DNA of 64,000 bases from the NCBI GenBank assembly GCA_017620135.1, contig JAFZQZ010000096.1, positions 1 to 64,000 on the forward strand. The letters are read 5' to 3'. The notes beneath the pieces were generated by a model. The model worked only from the letters and a program-made list of their open reading frames with translations, did not search any database and was not told the DNA's origin. The stretch's first letter is position 1; every line of letters begins with the position of its first letter. Shown piece by piece: positions 1-8,463 of this stretch. The DNA comes from Bacillota bacterium. Lineage in GTDB: Bacteria; Bacillota; Clostridia; Lachnospirales; Bianqueaceae. The translations under genes and the position numbers were made by a program.

Positions 1-944
1 ATAATAACTGCTAAGTCATCCCCACAATCTTCACTAAGCTTTGCAACAGCCCCTAGACCAGTATATGTTTTCCCCGTTCCTGTAGCCATATCGAATATTC
101 CCCGATAGTTTTCTCCTACCCAGGCAGCAATTGCTTCGTTTTGATATGGATGTAACGTGATACTTGAAGGAATCCGGGCCCCAATTGTTTCATTTGCAGT
201 ATTACTATTTCCAGATTGATAACTCTTATTTAAAAACTGATCCTTATCCACATCATAGTTTGGTTCTTTCCTCTTATACTTATCAATCATCGCTTGAGAA
301 ATACTCGGAAATTGAACCACATGAATATTAGGTTCATTATCATTCCAGATAGAAACAAAAGCGTTTTCTTTAAGTTTATACTGATTGGACTCAAATGTAT
401 CGCCCCAGCTTCGAAAGACATCAATCGTCTCATAATTGACCGACATAGCTGTTGAAGACTCGTTCATCGATCCAGAAAAAGCTACACTGTTACCATCCTC
501 ATCAGATATTACTCCCATTTTTTCATGATACATCCCGATCCCTTTATGATCCTCTGTATATGCTATTCGGATATCAAGAACTCCTTCGGCAATTAGTGTA
601 GCTAAAAGATTCAATCGTTCCATAGAATAAAAATCCAGGGATTCATCTGAGAGTTGATTAAGTAAGGCTTTTTCTATCACTGTGTTTCGATCTTCATAAC
701 CCTTTTGAATTGCCTCGATATCTTCCTCCGAAAGATAAGGTGAAGCTACTATCTGAATTTTACCTCCTCGTTTAGCTAACGAGGCTATTCCCTTTGATAT
801 CTCCACCAATGACGTGGAAGAGAAGAAACCTACTGCACGGCGATATAGAACTGCTTCATTAAGTAAAGGAATATAGAAGTCTTGGACAACATTATCAATC
901 AAAGACCTATATTCACTTTTGATAATGTGATCTTGTAAACTCAT
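1..944 (-). CDS. Phospholipase D-like domain/SF2 helicase fusion, partial
   Basis: This gene starts at ATG 944 and runs off the left edge, so at least 314 residues are present and the C-terminus is missing. An N-terminal phospholipase D-like nuclease domain is suggested by HEKMGVISD (HxKx4D pattern, near residue 143) followed by SGSMNES. A DEAD/DEAH-type helicase begins after residue 250, with Walker A ATGTGKT just before the window ends. It lies 14 bp downstream of the cysteine desulfurase in the same direction, so it is the last visible gene of the phosphorothioation-like operon. Its likely role is the DNA-cleaving partner that targets unmodified DNA; this is inference from position and domains. 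It could instead belong to a separate defence unit that merely adjoins. The domain calls are fairly secure, the role is not. Confidence 0.75.
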   Translation of the reverse strand, partial: MSLQDHIIKSEYRSLIDNVVQDFYIPLLNEAVLYRRAVGFFSSTSLVEISKGIASLAKRGGKIQIVASPYLSEEDIEAIQKGYEDRNTVIEKALLNQLSDESLDFYSMERLNLLATLIAEGVLDIRIAYTEDHKGIGMYHEKMGVISDEDGNSVAFSGSMNESSTAMSVNYETIDVFRSWGDTFESNQYKLKENAFVSIWNDNEPNIHVVQFPSISQAMIDKYKRKEPNYDVDKDQFLNKSYQSGNSNTANETIGARIPSSITLHPYQNEAIAAWVGENYRGIFDMATGTGKTYTGLGAVAKLSEDCGDDLAVI

Positions 945-958
945 TTTAACTTCCTTCC

Positions 959-2104
959 TTAAAGATTTTCCTGAATATAAGATAATACATTTCTCAATTC
1001 CACAAAATCATTTTCACTTGTAAAACAGTTAACGCTGAACCTTATCGTACCTTCTGGAAAAGTTCCAAGAAACTTGTGTGCTTTAGGCGCGCATTGTAAG
1101 CCTGTTCGAACAGCAATCCCATTTTCAGCAAAAATGCTGCCAGCACTGTCACTGGATATCCCATCAATTCTACATGAAACTATGCCAACGTATTTTCTTC
1201 CTTGAATATTTCCAATCACAGAAAGAAATGGATACTCATATAGCAACTGTAATAGTTTCTCTCGATGATCATTCTCCTCTTTATATAACTGATTAACTGT
1301 TCGTTCCTTGATCCATTTAAGTGCTGCATTAAGGCCCGAAACTCCCAGAATATTAAACGTACCCATTTCATACTTTTCTGGAAGACTGTCTGGCATGTTC
1401 TGATTTGCAGAATCATACCCTGTTCCGCCAAATATTACTGGTAATAAGTTAGCGGTTGGTTTCATTAAAAAACCAGATATCCCAGTAGGTCCCAAAAGGG
1501 TTTTGTGTCCAGCAAAAACAGCATAATCAATTGTCTCGAGTCCAACATTAAGATCAACAAGTCCAGCTGTCTGCGCCATATCGACAAGAGTTATAGCATC
1601 ATATTCTTTTGCCAATGCAAAAATTTCTTCAACTGGCGCAATTAATCCAATCACGTTACTTGCATGACTAACAATAACCATATCTGGATGAACAGCATCA
1701 AATTGGTAACGTATTCTTTCCAGATCATACTCTAGTAAAGGCGATACTGCTAAGTCTGTTATCTTTATTTTTCCTAATTGCTCAAAATGATAAAGTATGC
1801 GAGTTACAGCGTTATGCTCAAATGGACTAACATAAATGTTTTTAGCACTTCCGGCAATAACACCCTGAATTATCATATTCAGCGCAATTGTTGCTGTTGG
1901 AGTAAAAACAACTTGCTTAGCTGGACAATGCAACAAGTCCTTAAGTAAACTTCTTGTCTCATCGATAATGCCTTTTGCTTTATTAGCAAGACCATAATCT
2001 CCTCTACCAGCACTTCCTCCATGGTTTCTATAAAACTCACTCATGAAACTATAGACCTCATCCGGCTTTGGATATGTTGTAGCCGCATTGTCGAAATAAG
2101 CCAT
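959..2104 (-). CDS. Cysteine desulfurase, SspA/IscS-like
   Basis: This is a 381-aa PLP-dependent class V aminotransferase fold protein that takes sulfur from L-cysteine as a persulfide. The PLP lysine is K201 in the FAGHK motif, and the likely persulfide cysteine is C338 in RTGLQCAPKAHK. The length is normal for the family. The ATG at 2104 follows an AAAGGAG ribosome binding site. It starts 14 bp after the SspC-like gene ends and 14 bp before the PLD-helicase begins, which marks it as the sulfur donor of the phosphorothioation operon rather than a housekeeping IscS; no scaffold or Fe-S assembly gene is nearby. The enzyme class is clear and the SspA role is inferred from the neighbours. Confidence 0.9.
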   Translation of the reverse strand: MAYFDNAATTYPKPDEVYSFMSEFYRNHGGSAGRGDYGLANKAKGIIDETRSLLKDLLHCPAKQVVFTPTATIALNMIIQGVIAGSAKNIYVSPFEHNAVTRILYHFEQLGKIKITDLAVSPLLEYDLERIRYQFDAVHPDMVIVSHASNVIGLIAPVEEIFALAKEYDAITLVDMAQTAGLVDLNVGLETIDYAVFAGHKTLLGPTGISGFLMKPTANLLPVIFGGTGYDSANQNMPDSLPEKYEMGTFNILGVSGLNAALKWIKERTVNQLYKEENDHREKLLQLLYEYPFLSVIGNIQGRKYVGIVSCRIDGISSDSAGSIFAENGIAVRTGLQCAPKAHKFLGTFPEGTIRFSVNCFTSENDFVELRNVLSYIQENL

Positions 2105-2117
2105 ATGACGTCTCCTT

Positions 2118-5100
2118 TCAACAGAGTTTTTTTAGTACTTCCATTAAGATCTGTCTTTTTTCTTGTTCTGATATCGAATGACCCATAGCCTCAAGAGAAG
2201 CTAAAATCTGATTAAACAACAATTTCCCTCGTGGTGAAACATCTACTTTTTCAAATCGTCTTGTTGTGCTTTCTCCACTTTCATCCGCAAAAGTCACCTG
2301 GTAACTTGACGTGTCATTTATTGTTTCTGCAACAACACTACTATGAAAGTCCTTTGCAGTTGTAATATATCGTGCCAATGCTCCATGATATTGCTCTATT
2401 GTTTTCTCGTTCCAGTCCTCAAGTCGTAATCCTGTAGCCAGCTTCGCAAGACGAGTAATAAACAAATCCTCATCGTTCGTCATTGTTCGTAGATGTTGCA
2501 AGAAACGTTCCGTGCCATCAGGGAAAAGCTGCTCAAAACTTTTAGGATCAAGATGATCACACCATTCAGCCACTGCCCCAGCAAGTGTAATTCTTATACT
2601 TTTTGACTCATCCTGACTAGGTAAAAAAGCAATTCTTGTTTTCTGAATTAGATCCTTCTTTAATTCTGTCATTAAGCCATCGAATACTTCTTTTGTAGCA
2701 ATAATATCAGTTGCCGCATCGTTATAATCTCCACGATAATCTACTGCTTCAGGAAGTTTTTTAAAGAGCAGATCGGAAGAACTCGTATTTTGTCGGAGGA
2801 GTCTCATTACATCTATCTGCCTGCGTACTAGTTTTTCTCCCGATGGTCTTTTAGTGCTTTCTTTAGAATACTTTGGTAAAGCCATATACCAACGCCGCAT
2901 AGCATTAGCAACATAGTCATAAGAATTACTGGCTTTCTCAGCATCGACAATGTATTCTTTAAATGCATCAGCTAATCTTGTAATATAGTATTCTTTCTCC
3001 GGATTCCAATCTAAATACTCTAGTGAATAGTTGCTCGGATTGCTGTTTATTTGAATGAGAATATCAGCACTTGTCTGAACTGGACCAAATCGATCATTAA
3101 TCACTGTTTGCTGACGATAGTTATGTAGAACTGCTGCTAAATATATCGGTATTATTCCATAACGAAGGCCTATGTGATACTTAGGTGAAGTTAGTCGCTC
3201 ATATAACGCCGCGAAACTCTTCCTGCCGTTTTGCCGCACCTCAAGAATAAAGTCTTCTATTGTTTCCATCATATTTCGTACAGCTGAATCTTTAGGATGA
3301 AGATTAATCTGAGGAACTCCTCCATCATCATTCCATATTCCTGTACGTAAAAGTGTACTCCGTAGGATAGAAATCTCCTGTCCGGATCCTGAAAGTCCTA
3401 GATTTGGCTCTAACTCAGTTCTTAACAAGGCACTGACAATTTTATTTCGGCTGTTTTGTGCCACGCTTGTAATTTCGTTCTTATTAACGGACTCATTGTT
3501 AATTATTGGAGTTAAGCCATATATATTATCACAGATCTGGGACATTACCTCAGTAAGTCCTGCTTTTCGATGAATTTCAAGCGCTCTGCCATTATGGTAA
3601 TATACCGACAAATAGCTCTCTGGATGTGTATATGAACTAATAAACCCTTTGATTATCTCTTGTAGATCCTCAAAAACCACTTCGTACTCATCAAAAAGAA
3701 CAGGATCATCAATTGTATTATCTCTGAGTTTTGTCACAGCAATATATTCATAAGCCACTGAATCGATATCTTGGTAGCTTCTAGGTAATACAAATAGATA
3801 TCTTTCGTAGTTTTTACTTGTATTATTGATAATATCTATAAGCTTTTTGAGTTGTTGTTCATTCTCTGGGATAATACCGTAGATGATTCCATCGCCCTCA
3901 ATCGCTTCACTCTTTATGTTCCAATCAACATCTTCTGTTACTTCAGAACCAGAAATAAACTGAAATGTAAAGAACCTCGTCATCTCATGGTCATCATTAT
4001 AACGAGATGGATACATATAATTATCAAAATTTGAGGAATTAAGAATGTCTTTTACGGTGGTTTTCCCGGACAGTAATTCCACTTGGTCGTGAATTTTCTG
4101 TCGCACGTCAACACCTGATGTCTGCTTCAGACGAAGATAATCATTACTTCGCTTGATATAAACAACAAACTCTTTCTCAATTAGATCTGAGATAGCTTGT
4201 TCAATCTCGCTTACTTCGTAAGACCCTGAATAAATCCCGATGATTTGTTCTTTTGTCGGATTCAGCCGCTCAAACTGTTCCAGAATATAAATCAAAGATA
4301 TAGTTTTTATGATCTTACATCCAAGGTCATTTTCTGGCAGCTGATTCAGTATCTTGCTTGTGAGAATGTAAGTATCATGAATATCTCCAGCATATACTTC
4401 TTTTTTAAACAACGGTTCAAAATAGTCATATATCAAGTCTGGAGTAACTAAAGTAAAATCATTATTATAATCGTCCAGAAACGCCGGAAGTGTAGCTGTT
4501 CCTTCGGCAGACAAGAAAGTAAATAGCGTCCGTTCATTTTGTGCGATTCTTTCAGACAATCTTGGCAAAATAAAGGTTGACACTGGATGAAGGGGAAAGC
4601 ACCCCTTAATTGCAACTTCAATTTCTCCCTGCGCATCTGTAAACATCTGATGCTTTTTATAACGAGTAAACAAGGCCTCAAAATCTCGATCATATTTTTC
4701 ACAGAATGATTTCCATTTTGTCCCTTTATGTTTTATAACAGAAGATATTATCTCGTAAGTTTGACTAAAATTGTTATTCATATGGACATGCTTAAAGCGC
4801 TCAGAAACGCCACGCCATCCATCTGTTTTTTCTTTCGGTAGTCTATCAATATAGTTTGCTATTTCTTTATGAGAAATTAGCATTAGATGAAGCTGTAATA
4901 CACCGCTTCTACAACATTTTTCAGCAAAATCTTGAAGCATTTTTGTGTCGCTTACAGACGCATCTATAATATTTGCCTCTAAATATTTGCTAAATTCATC
5001 GTAAACAACATATATTCCAGAATATCCTCTTGAATTAAGACTTTTTGCTACGCTTTCATATAACTCAACTACATCGAACCCAAGGAAAGGATTAAAAACA

Positions 5101-5723
5101 CTACCTGCCGTTAATGTTGGATAAATCCACTCGAACGATTCATAAGCGACAATATCATAATTGCTTAATTGATCGATAAAGATTTCAACTGGGATATTGA
5201 TGCCTTGTTTAAACTTTTCAAATGTTTCCGGAAAATCCTTCTCCCATCTCTTGATTACTCCAATAGCTGCCTCATAATTTGTTTCTGGCATTGCATCCAA
5301 TAAACCATGCTCAGAAAGCGTACGTTGAAGTGATAAAAGAAATGCCTGTGTCAAACTTGTGTTGCTACCGCTAATAACAACAGGGAGTATCTTATCATCA
5401 CTTTCATAGTAGTTCTGGATAAGTTGATACAGTCTTTTGTTTTCTTGGACCTTTGGAATCAATTTTCCAAATAGCGACAAGTCCCTTTTCATAAGAATTG
5501 AAAGGATTGTGAGAACAATATGTGACTTTCCTTTTCCATATGCACCAATCAGCACTCGAGCTCGATCTGATGATATTGGATATACGCTTAACAAAATGTC
5601 CTCTAACAAACTAAGGGCAGATTTTGTGGGTATAAAGCTATTGAGTTTTTCGTCATTTCCTAAATCGTAGTTAATATTGACAGAATATTGGAAGCCAGAA
5701 GCAACAGAAATCATGTCTCTCAT
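2118..5723 (-). CDS. Large P-loop ATPase, SspC-like
   Basis: This 1201-aa protein has a Walker A motif GAYGKGKS at residues 60-67 and a Walker B-like stretch YVVYDEFSKY near residue 250. The rest is long and has no domain I can name, and no membrane segment is evident. The P-loop style resembles the large ATPases of Ssp and BREX (BrxC-like) systems. In Ssp phosphorothioation SspC supplies ATPase activity. The start overlaps the DUF4007 stop by 4 bp (ATGA), so the two are translationally coupled, which supports a shared complex. A BREX-type ATPase is the main alternative, but the PAPS-reductase and DUF4007 neighbours favour Ssp. Confidence 0.75.
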   Translation of the reverse strand: MRDMISVASGFQYSVNINYDLGNDEKLNSFIPTKSALSLLEDILLSVYPISSDRARVLIGAYGKGKSHIVLTILSILMKRDLSLFGKLIPKVQENKRLYQLIQNYYESDDKILPVVISGSNTSLTQAFLLSLQRTLSEHGLLDAMPETNYEAAIGVIKRWEKDFPETFEKFKQGINIPVEIFIDQLSNYDIVAYESFEWIYPTLTAGSVFNPFLGFDVVELYESVAKSLNSRGYSGIYVVYDEFSKYLEANIIDASVSDTKMLQDFAEKCCRSGVLQLHLMLISHKEIANYIDRLPKEKTDGWRGVSERFKHVHMNNNFSQTYEIISSVIKHKGTKWKSFCEKYDRDFEALFTRYKKHQMFTDAQGEIEVAIKGCFPLHPVSTFILPRLSERIAQNERTLFTFLSAEGTATLPAFLDDYNNDFTLVTPDLIYDYFEPLFKKEVYAGDIHDTYILTSKILNQLPENDLGCKIIKTISLIYILEQFERLNPTKEQIIGIYSGSYEVSEIEQAISDLIEKEFVVYIKRSNDYLRLKQTSGVDVRQKIHDQVELLSGKTTVKDILNSSNFDNYMYPSRYNDDHEMTRFFTFQFISGSEVTEDVDWNIKSEAIEGDGIIYGIIPENEQQLKKLIDIINNTSKNYERYLFVLPRSYQDIDSVAYEYIAVTKLRDNTIDDPVLFDEYEVVFEDLQEIIKGFISSYTHPESYLSVYYHNGRALEIHRKAGLTEVMSQICDNIYGLTPIINNESVNKNEITSVAQNSRNKIVSALLRTELEPNLGLSGSGQEISILRSTLLRTGIWNDDGGVPQINLHPKDSAVRNMMETIEDFILEVRQNGRKSFAALYERLTSPKYHIGLRYGIIPIYLAAVLHNYRQQTVINDRFGPVQTSADILIQINSNPSNYSLEYLDWNPEKEYYITRLADAFKEYIVDAEKASNSYDYVANAMRRWYMALPKYSKESTKRPSGEKLVRRQIDVMRLLRQNTSSSDLLFKKLPEAVDYRGDYNDAATDIIATKEVFDGLMTELKKDLIQKTRIAFLPSQDESKSIRITLAGAVAEWCDHLDPKSFEQLFPDGTERFLQHLRTMTNDEDLFITRLAKLATGLRLEDWNEKTIEQYHGALARYITTAKDFHSSVVAETINDTSSYQVTFADESGESTTRRFEKVDVSPRGKLLFNQILASLEAMGHSISEQEKRQILMEVLKKLC

Positions 5724-6631
5724 CTTAAACTCTCCTGACTCTGCTCATTAATGGATTCATAAAAGCGTTTTACACAATCCAGGAAACTAAGTTCTTCCTG
5801 CAATGATATAACATCCAGACCGGCAGTGCGATTTATTTTAATTAGTCCAATCTTCTCGATTCGATATAACACATCAAGCATTGTAACAGAGTCAAGATTA
5901 AAAACTTTACCTATATTGCATGGGGCAGAAAGAAGTTCATTTAGCATGATCTCTTTCCTATTATCCGCATTTGCAACTATAACCGCTAAGACAACATAAG
6001 GATTAAAAGTGTCGGCCGCAGGAATGCTCTTTTTGTATGTTTTTTTCTTTTTGTTAAGAATGTCTACCAGCCCTAATTCGCCAAAAGGACAATCAATATT
6101 ATTCTCTGGAGATACTCGTGTAGGATTAGATTTATAGCGCGGAAGATATGTATTTATAATGCACTGAAAATCATCATTTAGTGAACGAATAGCGTAATCG
6201 GTTTCACCATCTTCCATCTTAATATATTTTTGTAATGAGTCCACGAAGTCTTCTCTTGAAAACTCTGTCATTGAAAACTCATTAAAAAAGAAATACCAAG
6301 CCGTTGCATCTTCCTTTTGAGATGCTAGATAGTATTGTAAAAGGTAGAGTGTTCCTAGTTCCTCAATATAGGTGTCATATTCATAGATGAGCCTGCCAAG
6401 ATCAGTAAAATGCTGTGTTCGTTTACCTTTATTGGGTTCAGAAGTAAGTCCAACAGCCTGAAGCCAATACCGCAGAGATTTAACCATATTGGCACCAATT
6501 CCCAGAACATCCATGGGGTTTTCATCACGATCAATGAAAAGATCTGGCTTATTTGCAACACATCGCATACCTTTGCTGAGCCATCCTTTTCTTATAAAAA
6601 ATGTTTCATGAGCTCTGAATCTCATTGACAT
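5720..6631 (-). CDS. DUF4007 protein, SspB-like putative DNA nickase
   Basis: This is a 303-aa protein whose opening (RFRAHETFFIRKGWLSKG) is typical of the DUF4007 family. In the Ssp systems the DUF4007 protein SspB is the nickase that opens one DNA strand so that sulfur can be inserted. I see no simple nuclease motif, which is usual for this family. The ATG at 6631 has a GGGAGG site about 8 bases upstream. It sits 19 bp after the SspD-like gene and overlaps the SspC-like gene by 4 bp. The family assignment is by recognition of the sequence and context; nickase activity is known for family members and inferred here. Confidence 0.8.
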   Translation of the reverse strand: MSMRFRAHETFFIRKGWLSKGMRCVANKPDLFIDRDENPMDVLGIGANMVKSLRYWLQAVGLTSEPNKGKRTQHFTDLGRLIYEYDTYIEELGTLYLLQYYLASQKEDATAWYFFFNEFSMTEFSREDFVDSLQKYIKMEDGETDYAIRSLNDDFQCIINTYLPRYKSNPTRVSPENNIDCPFGELGLVDILNKKKKTYKKSIPAADTFNPYVVLAVIVANADNRKEIMLNELLSAPCNIGKVFNLDSVTMLDVLYRIEKIGLIKINRTAGLDVISLQEELSFLDCVKRFYESINEQSQESLR

Positions 6632-6650
6632 TAGAACTTCCTCCCAGTAT

Positions 6651-8366
6651 CTATTTTGTAAGAAGATACTTATTCATCATACAGCCACCGTCTAAATACT
6701 TTGCTGTCATACACATCTTACAGTGGACACATTTCCCCGGATCAATATAGTAGCTATCTCCTATGATTGAAATTGCTCCTTGCCTACAGATAGATTCACA
6801 TTTTAAACACTTTCTGCAAGCATTATACTTTCTAACTTGATAGCCAACCATTCGTTGCAGGTTGTCATGATCTGCAACATTCATTGTCTTAACCTTTACA
6901 GCATATTCATATCCATCCTGATTGAATGGTTGAATGGAAAGAATTGGGACGTTTGTTCTTGGATCCAAAATGATAGTTTCACGGAGTAGTTTCTTCCCTA
7001 GTTCTGGAGCGATTTTACCAAAAGGAACAAACATACCAATTAATTCATCATCAAATGGTCTCACCAATCGATAGATTTTCGCGTGGTCCTCGGTCGTACA
7101 GTTGGTAAAACGAATTTTAACATCTCCCGCAGACGGAAGGCCATTTCCTCCTTGACGAGCTTTCCATTTTCCGCTATCAACATATACTTCTGGATCCGGT
7201 TTCCCGATTTTCTTTGCAAAATCTATAAGAAATTCCCGCCATTTTTGGGATTCTTCAGGCATATAAATCCTGGAAAGAAACTGTGCCCTAGGATTATTGT
7301 TTGGGCAGCACCAACATCCTACTCGATCATATCCAAGTCTATATGCTGTATTGAAATCTATTTCTTCCGATAAAATATATAACCAGATGTCAATATCTTT
7401 CCAAAAGAATATAGGGGATGCAACTGTTTGTTGCTGAATTTTTACAGATTCAGCGTCATCCTCAATACGATTATATTTACTTCTGCTTACTGATTCAAAC
7501 TTTCTTATGCCATAGAAGGTAAGAATCTGTTGACTTCGATAAAGACTATTAATAATCCGAGTAATTGGTCCTGTCTTAAACATAGAACAACACCAACGCA
7601 TCATTCTGGCTGGAGGTCCAATATCTTCACACACATCATAAAAAACTTGTTCATCATTTTTAGCTATTTGGAAAATTGCTAAGGGATGACTGTCACGATA
7701 TCTGTTAGCATATTCAATTGTTGACGGGAACTCGAGGGTTGTATTTCCAAAGATGTGGACTAAACTTGGATTACTAAGGGCTTTTGTGACCACATCTGCC
7801 GTAACAGTTGAATCTTTTCCTCCAGAAAATGAAATAACGATGTTTTCTTCCTTGAAGTTTTCAGCAGCATGTCTAACAAAACTAAATGCCTCATCTTTCA
7901 GATAATCCAATCTGTGTTGATTTGCCTTTATAAAAAGTGAAATAGATCTATTGAATACCGCATACTCTATTTGAGTAGAAGCATCAAAAACCTTCTTAGA
8001 TATAGAATCCGCATCTGCTTCTGTATAAGTCTTAACTGAAATGGAAAATGGTTTACCATCTATATAATACTTACTATTGAGTGCCCATACAGAATGATTC
8101 ATGTAAGTATTCGGCTCTTCATTTCTAAGGGCAGCAAGAAGAAGCCTCTCTTCAGGGAAAACGGGACGTAAATCAGATGATAAATATCGTGTCTTATGAT
8201 GACAAATAGGGCAGATTCCTTTGTCTTTTGCGGAGAATAAATGAATGAGTGGGATCTTGCAGTTATCGCACCAATAGATTTCTATTGGCGTGTCTTCAAC
8301 AGTCTCAGATCCACAGACTGGACAAAAGGCTTCGTTTGTCTCAATATTACACTTCTTACACCACAT
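6651..8366 (-). CDS. PAPS-reductase/ATP pyrophosphatase with zinc-ribbon and ferredoxin-like ends, SspD-like
   Basis: First gene of the phosphorothioation-like operon, 571 aa from the ATG at 8366, chosen because AAGGAGG lies 7 bases upstream. Four CxxC pairs in the first 55 residues (CKKC, CPVC, CDNC, CPIC) suggest two zinc ribbons. The PP-loop SFSGGKDS is at residues 179-186, with RWCCS and GCWCCPN further on, as in PAPS-reductase-family enzymes such as DndC and SspD that activate DNA for sulfur insertion. The C-terminus carries two cysteine clusters (CRKCLKCESIC and CVHCKMC) that resemble a 2x[4Fe-4S] ferredoxin. The combined architecture suggests a built-in electron supply. Assimilatory sulfate reduction is unlikely given the neighbours. 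Confidence 0.85.
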   Translation of the reverse strand: MWCKKCNIETNEAFCPVCGSETVEDTPIEIYWCDNCKIPLIHLFSAKDKGICPICHHKTRYLSSDLRPVFPEERLLLAALRNEEPNTYMNHSVWALNSKYYIDGKPFSISVKTYTEADADSISKKVFDASTQIEYAVFNRSISLFIKANQHRLDYLKDEAFSFVRHAAENFKEENIVISFSGGKDSTVTADVVTKALSNPSLVHIFGNTTLEFPSTIEYANRYRDSHPLAIFQIAKNDEQVFYDVCEDIGPPARMMRWCCSMFKTGPITRIINSLYRSQQILTFYGIRKFESVSRSKYNRIEDDAESVKIQQQTVASPIFFWKDIDIWLYILSEEIDFNTAYRLGYDRVGCWCCPNNNPRAQFLSRIYMPEESQKWREFLIDFAKKIGKPDPEVYVDSGKWKARQGGNGLPSAGDVKIRFTNCTTEDHAKIYRLVRPFDDELIGMFVPFGKIAPELGKKLLRETIILDPRTNVPILSIQPFNQDGYEYAVKVKTMNVADHDNLQRMVGYQVRKYNACRKCLKCESICRQGAISIIGDSYYIDPGKCVHCKMCMTAKYLDGGCMMNKYLLTK

Positions 8367-8434
8367 GATCCCACCTCCTTCCACAAAAAATACTTACATA
8401 AAAAAGCTTACAAAAATCCTATGATAACCATATA

Positions 8435-8463
8435 ATTATACCACACCCCCCTCTGTTTTTCAG
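8435..8463 (-). promoter_or_regulatory. Putative sigma-70-type promoter of the phosphorothioation operon
   Basis: Read on the minus strand, CTGAAA (8463-8458) and TATAAT (8440-8435) are separated by 17 bp, and the -10 is preceded by TGTGG. It lies about 70 bp upstream of the SspD-like start, and no other good promoter is visible in the 217-bp gap, so the operon probably has its own transcript. Confidence 0.6.

Follow-up and report, generated by a model that had tools for sequence, protein, structure and literature searches.

In 2019 a restriction set, PbeABCD, was reported as the companion of DndCDEA phosphorothioation in haloarchaea; there it stops virus replication only when the phosphorothioate mark is present (PMC6459918). 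In its corrected annotation, PbeA is an HKD nuclease joined to a superfamily 2 (SF2) helicase, PbeB is small and disordered, PbeC is an ABC ATPase with a CxC motif and PbeD is a relative of DndE (PMC10853773). Other closely related systems include SspABCD accompanied by SspE or by SspFGH (PMC8092258, PMC9646914). Both literatures contain orphans: 320 of 553 pbeAC pairs have no dndCD beside them (PMC6459918), and 83.9% of 2,678 sspBCD modules are without SspE and SspFGH, which led to the question of further restriction partners (PMC8092258). Here, we analyze one end of a 64,000-nucleotide stretch of a gut Bacillota bacterium (hereafter the window; assembly GCA_017620135.1, contig JAFZQZ010000096.1) and suggest, with a probability of roughly three in four, that it begins with five genes, the fifth of them cut, from the start of a phosphorothioate defence operon, SspDBCA-PbeABCD, which would have eight genes in all and ride as low-GC cargo next to a conjugation module.

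The inferred operon shares with the DndCDEA-PbeABCD system of Haloterrigena jeotgali (PMC6459918) a phospholipase D (PLD)-SF2 PbeA, a small PbeB, a CxC PbeC and a DndE-like PbeD in the same order, the set following a phosphorothioation module whose last gene is a cysteine desulfurase. It differs in its writer, which is DndCDE in the archaeon and Ssp (DUF4007 plus an Orc/Cdc6-type ATPase) here, and in its PbeA, which falls in a separate clade. With SspABCD-SspE and SspABCD-SspFGH the window has the four modification roles in common, and SspFGH and SspE-like genes occupy the same slot in sister loci; however, its effector is PbeA, its SspD is of the long, ferredoxin-bearing BrxP type and its gene order is D-B-C-A. 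The novelty lies in the combination and the slot, the component parts being already known. In the literature searched we found no description of either, though a mention in 10.1101/2024.06.03.597175 (Type 4 BREX in gut isolates) or gkaa726 (a survey of ABC ATPases) is possible. Such an operon would answer part of both orphan questions and make them testable, since it predicts, for the orphan modules, which ones protect the cell and by what means. The pairing recurs in many gut bacteria and may also account for the way in which many sulfur-marking systems that look incomplete act in defence.

Five genes at the end of a contig

An earlier reading of the letters (the original prediction) had placed five genes here, and each of them is recognized by Pfam, NCBIfam and PADLOC taken together, at that place and on that strand, with match scores far beyond chance. 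They are transcribed from the minus strand (window 8384-1) in the order sspD, sspB, sspC, sspA, pbeA:

8435..8463, minus strand: promoter-like site ahead of sspD, CTGAAA-17-TATAAT with TG before the second hexamer (a consensus match only)
6651..8366, minus strand: sspD/brxP-like gene, PP-loop protein of the PAPS-reductase family, 571 amino acids from ATG 8366; PF01507 1.5e-30; SFSGGKDS from residue 179
5720..6631, minus strand: sspB, DUF4007 protein, 303 amino acids; PF13182 5.6e-84, PDB 6juf (SspB) 4e-22, PADLOC SspB 2e-57
2118..5723, minus strand: sspC, BrxC/SspC-like P-loop ATPase, 1201 amino acids; PADLOC SspC 9e-130, BrxC 1e-43; GAYGKGKS from residue 60
959..2104, minus strand: sspA, cysteine desulfurase, 381 amino acids; TIGR01977 1e-128, Aminotran_5 1.2e-68, PADLOC SspA 9.5e-40; K201 and C338
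1..944, minus strand: 5' part of pbeA, 314 residues, HKD (PLD) nuclease and start of the SF2 helicase; PADLOC PbeA 2.2e-102, and motifs

The four modification roles that had been proposed (desulfurase, DUF4007 protein, P-loop ATPase and PP-loop protein) are all matched by Pfam or PADLOC, and the residues quoted for SspA (K201 and C338), SspC (GAYGKGKS) and SspD (SFSGGKDS) were verified. The intergenic gaps from sspD to pbeA are 19, -4, 13 and 14 bp, and such short spacing over five genes makes the single transcript claimed by the original prediction likely. Its operon edge at 8463 has to be moved: sspD starts at ATG 8366, behind GGAGG, or at 8384, and 8463 is the -35 end of the promoter-like site, in a region no richer in sites of this type than its shuffles.

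The product of the last gene, read earlier as a PLD-SF2 helicase fusion, does carry both domains (PLDc_2 1.7e-7, ResIII 1.1e-8) within the first 314 residues, the only ones present, and PADLOC identifies it as PbeA with E=2.2e-102, aligned over the first 300 of 682 model positions. An HKD motif (HEKMGVISD...GSMN) lies at residue 140 and the first SF2 helicase motif is ATGTGKT; HKD and helicase motifs are retained in the PbeA of relatives, one of which (locus L045) is 68% identical. The view that the effector is neither SspE nor SspFGH therefore stands, and neither a GmrSD_N protein nor an SspF homologue was found elsewhere in the assembly, which has a gap at the locus. The suggestion of a different cutting module does not stand, because PbeA has been known since 2019 (PMC6459918, PMC10853773) and is modelled in PADLOC; nor is the fusion the whole effector, as in relatives it is followed by PbeB, PbeC and PbeD.

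A structure model of PbeA has SauUSI (PDB 7clg, PMC7913695) as its top PDB match in Foldseek, with an alignment that spans nearly the whole model and the same arrangement of an N-terminal PLD nuclease and an SF2 motor. SauUSI, however, recognizes methylated DNA through a C-terminal domain, whereas in the shorter PbeA no recognition domain was seen; the overall superposition is poor (TM score 0.3). Since the helicase part matches many SF2 motors at Z 20-25, and SauUSI comes first in Foldseek only, we use SauUSI as a guide to architecture and not to kinship.

Position 1 of the window is base 1 of contig C115 (88,701 bp, in a 121-contig assembly), which is why pbeA stops at residue 314; the leftward extension first proposed as a check ends there too, GCA_017620135.1 holding no sequence further left. 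The remainder of PbeA, PbeC and PbeD were not found anywhere in this assembly, and one assembly gap at the contig end would explain the loss of all three; by analogy with the relatives, the PbeB, PbeC and PbeD of this strain would lie beyond it. On the other side, the GC content of the operon (37%) is below that of most of the adjoining conjugation module (45-49%), so that the operon looks like transferred cargo. This module, at window 8584-39414, encodes a CHAP protein, a VirB4/TraG-type ATPase, a type IV coupling protein, a MobA/VirD2 relaxase, a 3005-amino-acid protein with M23 peptidase and SpaA domains, and ParA.

The complete operon in relatives and the frequency of the pairing

The whole operon is seen in two relatives (L012 and L013), where sspD-B-C-A is followed by pbeA, a pbeB-like open reading frame (ORF) of 50-60 amino acids, pbeC for a CxC ABC ATPase and pbeD for a protein of DndE fold. 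A cultured relative, Flavonifractor sp. An82 (L022), has the operon as well. The CxC motif (CICG) of PbeC is present in most loci. As PADLOC and NCBIfam gave at best weak matches for PbeD, and NCBIfam no Pbe-model match for the small PbeB-like ORFs, a structure model was used for the former and shuffles and split-half profiles for the latter. A homologous protein of 164-184 amino acids stands after PbeC in all ten extended loci; its AlphaFold model (mean confidence, pLDDT, 87) aligns with DndE at a VIA Z score of 7.6 over 110 of 114 residues, the next unrelated fold reaching 4.3, and the top eight Foldseek rows are DndE, with E-values of at least 0.5. The model thus suggests a DndE-fold PbeD, for which DndE is the best solved match. 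In 22 of 23 loci, PbeA and PbeC are separated by a PbeB-like ORF with 45 or more codons, where shuffles expect 0.7, and profiles built from one half of these ORFs recover nearly all of the other half. A 346-amino-acid gene of L012 was rejected as PbeB in favour of the small ORF between PbeA and PbeC; L013 has a 332-amino-acid gene. With PbeA, the PbeB-like ORF, CxC PbeC and DndE-fold PbeD all found, the relatives keep the archaeal order PbeA-B-C-D.

The frequency of the pairing was estimated in two ways. A search of 84,980 species genomes with an alignment of this SspD alone, with neighbours labelled by local profile searches and cassette gene identities taken from PADLOC and Pfam on representatives, gave 46 informative loci, that is, loci showing the gene behind SspA. 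PbeA directly follows SspA in 25 of them and some Pbe gene is present in 31; in the further 6, an SspE-like GmrSD gene precedes PbeA or PbeC. The slot is otherwise taken by SspFGH (6), a trio of helicase, GHKL and PLD genes (5), an SspE-like gene alone (1), DndFGH (1), or something else or nothing (2). The second scan was blind to the effector: DUF4007 was sought in 398 genomes of the window's phylum and was present in 31, the window's genome included, and 28 loci were classed by manual reading. Ten of these have Pbe, two of the ten with a short SspD; the others have SspFGH-/DndFGH-like sets (6), the helicase-GHKL-PLD trio (2), an SspE-like gene alone (1) or BREX-like blocks (2), or are cut or unclear (7).

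Another phylum offers an independent pairing. Plasmid pRinCIP108029a of Rhizobium indigoferae (L118), like the window, has Ssp genes with an adjacent Pbe set; unlike the window, its SspD is short, its genes are convergent and Pbe is in the order PbeB-C-D-A. With this plasmid and the loci of the effector-blind scan, the Ssp-Pbe pairing is common and probably has more than one origin.

Proposed mechanism and rival readings

From the families of the proteins, a division of labor can be proposed. SspA would take sulfur from cysteine and SspD would activate and transfer it with the use of ATP, while SspB, binding or nicking the site, and the SspC ATPase, driving placement, would together choose where the sulfur goes; the expected outcome is phosphorothioate marks on the host DNA. 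PbeC and the DndE-like PbeD would inspect DNA, PbeB may regulate, and PbeA, with its SauUSI-like HKD nuclease and SF2 motor, would act on unmarked DNA and block or cut replicating phage DNA. Since PbeA, unlike SauUSI, apparently lacks a recognition domain of its own, recognition is probably the task of PbeC and PbeD. By analogy with the archaeal system, defence in this strain is expected to depend on the phosphorothioate mark.

Several points weigh against this account. PbeB, PbeC and PbeD were not seen in this genome, present as they are in relatives, and even there PADLOC recognizes PbeD weakly (4 of 12 members, best 3.6e-5). The nearest relative of the window is L021 by the core proteins and L045 and L080 by PbeA; with nearest relatives that differ, strict co-adaptation is not evident. 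Phosphorothioation of this strain's DNA, its strand and motif included, is a prediction from sequence. So is cutting by PbeA, because archaeal PbeABCD does not visibly cut virus DNA (PMC6459918); cleavage has been argued to be part of Pbe action (PMC10853773).

How the modification module should be classed bears on one rival. By gene content it is SspABCD, with an SspA bearing its lysine and catalytic cysteine, SspB, SspC and an SspD ATP-pyrophosphatase. Its SspD, in which the PAPS-reductase-like role assigned by the original prediction holds, is of the long BrxP-like type and not the short one: it scores 6.5e-80 to PADLOC BrxP and 8e-12, a weak match, to the short SspD model, and has N-terminal, zinc-ribbon-like cysteine motifs and a C-terminal ferredoxin-like cluster whose cysteine columns are conserved in the alignment. 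It is on this best model that a Type 4 BREX reading would build, with BrxP, BrxC, DUF4007 and desulfurase here, PglZ and BrxL beyond the contig end, and PbeA as an accessory. A BrxP-like PAPS reductase with a cysteine-rich C-terminus, DUF4007, a BrxC-like ATPase and a cysteine desulfurase do all occur in Type 4 BREX (PMC12839542), and in locus L143 SspC and SspA are separated by a PglZ-BrxL block. But PglZ is present in all Type 4 BREX systems of that study, which also found the BrxP-type layout in a subset of SspD. In this assembly, with its gap at the locus, PF08665 (PglZ) has no match (the control was positive), and the only BrxL match is of 63 residues at E=9e-4, a level seen in ordinary genomes. 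Neither gene was seen in those relatives with PbeA after SspA that were read through to PbeD, PbeA stands in their place in the window, and the SspC model outscores that of BrxC (9e-130 against 1e-43). We therefore filed the module under Ssp, set the Type 4 BREX assignment aside, and regard it as very improbable.

The remaining rivals concern the effector, and each is unlikely. If Pbe acted independently of the Ssp mark, as a mere neighbor in a defence island, one could understand why Pbe is also found by itself or next to methyltransferases (PMC6459918; L114, L116) and why the PbeA and core phylogenies disagree; yet here the two sets share a strand and lie 14 bp apart, the identical order recurs in 25 other loci, and all 29 PbeA from operons of this type fall into a single clade, separate from the Dnd- and methyltransferase-linked PbeA (a small outside sample). 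Somewhat harder to credit is a working effector of SspE-like GmrSD type to the left, to whose action PbeA-D would add that of a second restriction module. GmrSD genes do stand behind PbeD in L132 and L140 and between SspA and PbeA in L028, L048 and L053, and SspE and SspFGH are additive in one host (PMC8092258), but the 14 bp between sspA and pbeA leave no gene here, and the assembly, whose gap could hide one, yields no GmrSD_N protein in a search that was positive in 8 of 14 control genomes. We give a similarly low chance to a pbeA truncated in the organism itself, leaving a modification-only locus with a decayed effector. Only 314 residues are present with no other Pbe piece in the assembly, modules lacking any known effector are frequent (PMC8092258), and L127 has just a 209-residue PbeA fragment behind SspA; against this, the frame is open to base 1 of the contig with no stop and intact catalytic motifs, and the break falls exactly at the contig end. 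The eight-gene Ssp-Pbe operon thus remains our preferred interpretation.

A proposed slot for exchangeable cassettes

On a tree of the core proteins (SspD, SspB and SspC; 46 rows), no fewer than 14 changes of cassette are needed, where shuffled labels give a mean of 18.2 and a minimum of 15. As this is fewer than in any shuffle, the labels are not random, and exchange would be frequent but not free. L024 (Pbe) and L050 (SspFGH) are sisters whose core proteins are 82% identical, and their DNA similarity stops within the final 50 bases of sspA. A Methanobrevibacter metagenome-assembled genome (L080) has the operon with a PbeA 65% identical to that of the window over 314 residues and an SspC only 25% identical; this may mark a transfer of the cassette between archaea and bacteria, if the genome is clean, or a contaminated genome.

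These results invite a broader reading, to which we would give a little less than an even chance: that a widespread Ssp lineage (gut Bacillota, spirochaetes and a methanogen) keeps a single fixed position behind sspA into which restriction cassettes are exchanged, most often PbeABCD; that PbeABCD serves both Ssp-type single-strand marks and Dnd marks, PbeC-PbeD reading the marks of two machines; and that the helicase-GHKL-PLD trio is an undescribed phosphorothioate-linked effector. Were Pbe to read the marks of two machines, the reader would recognize the phosphorothioate or its context and not the writer complex. The slot would also be a simple place to search for more effector cassettes.

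Several of its occupants merit a description. The trio, an SF2 ResIII helicase, a GHKL ATPase and a stand-alone PLD nuclease, is found in seven loci (L011:23456-27888, L031, L041, L060, L064, L134 and L136), and in the literature searched we found no system that has these three genes next to Ssp. In L055, L056 and L057 an SspE-like GmrSD gene is at the PbeA position with PbeC directly next, as if PbeC worked with a different nuclease. In L030 (7751-11924) the slot is shared by a divergent PLD protein and one of 1006 amino acids that matches sigma-70 region 4. The block of L143 (7949-17354), composed of DUF4007-like, BrxC/SspC-like, PglZ-like and BrxL genes between SspC and SspA, looks as if a Type 4 BREX had been inserted into an Ssp operon. 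Finally, a protein of 270-280 amino acids with weak SspB/DUF4007 similarity lies behind DptH-like genes in L121 (18620-19462), and weak second copies of DUF4007 also occur in L122, L129 and L142, some 15-16 kb from the first, in Ssp loci with SspFG/DptH-like sets.

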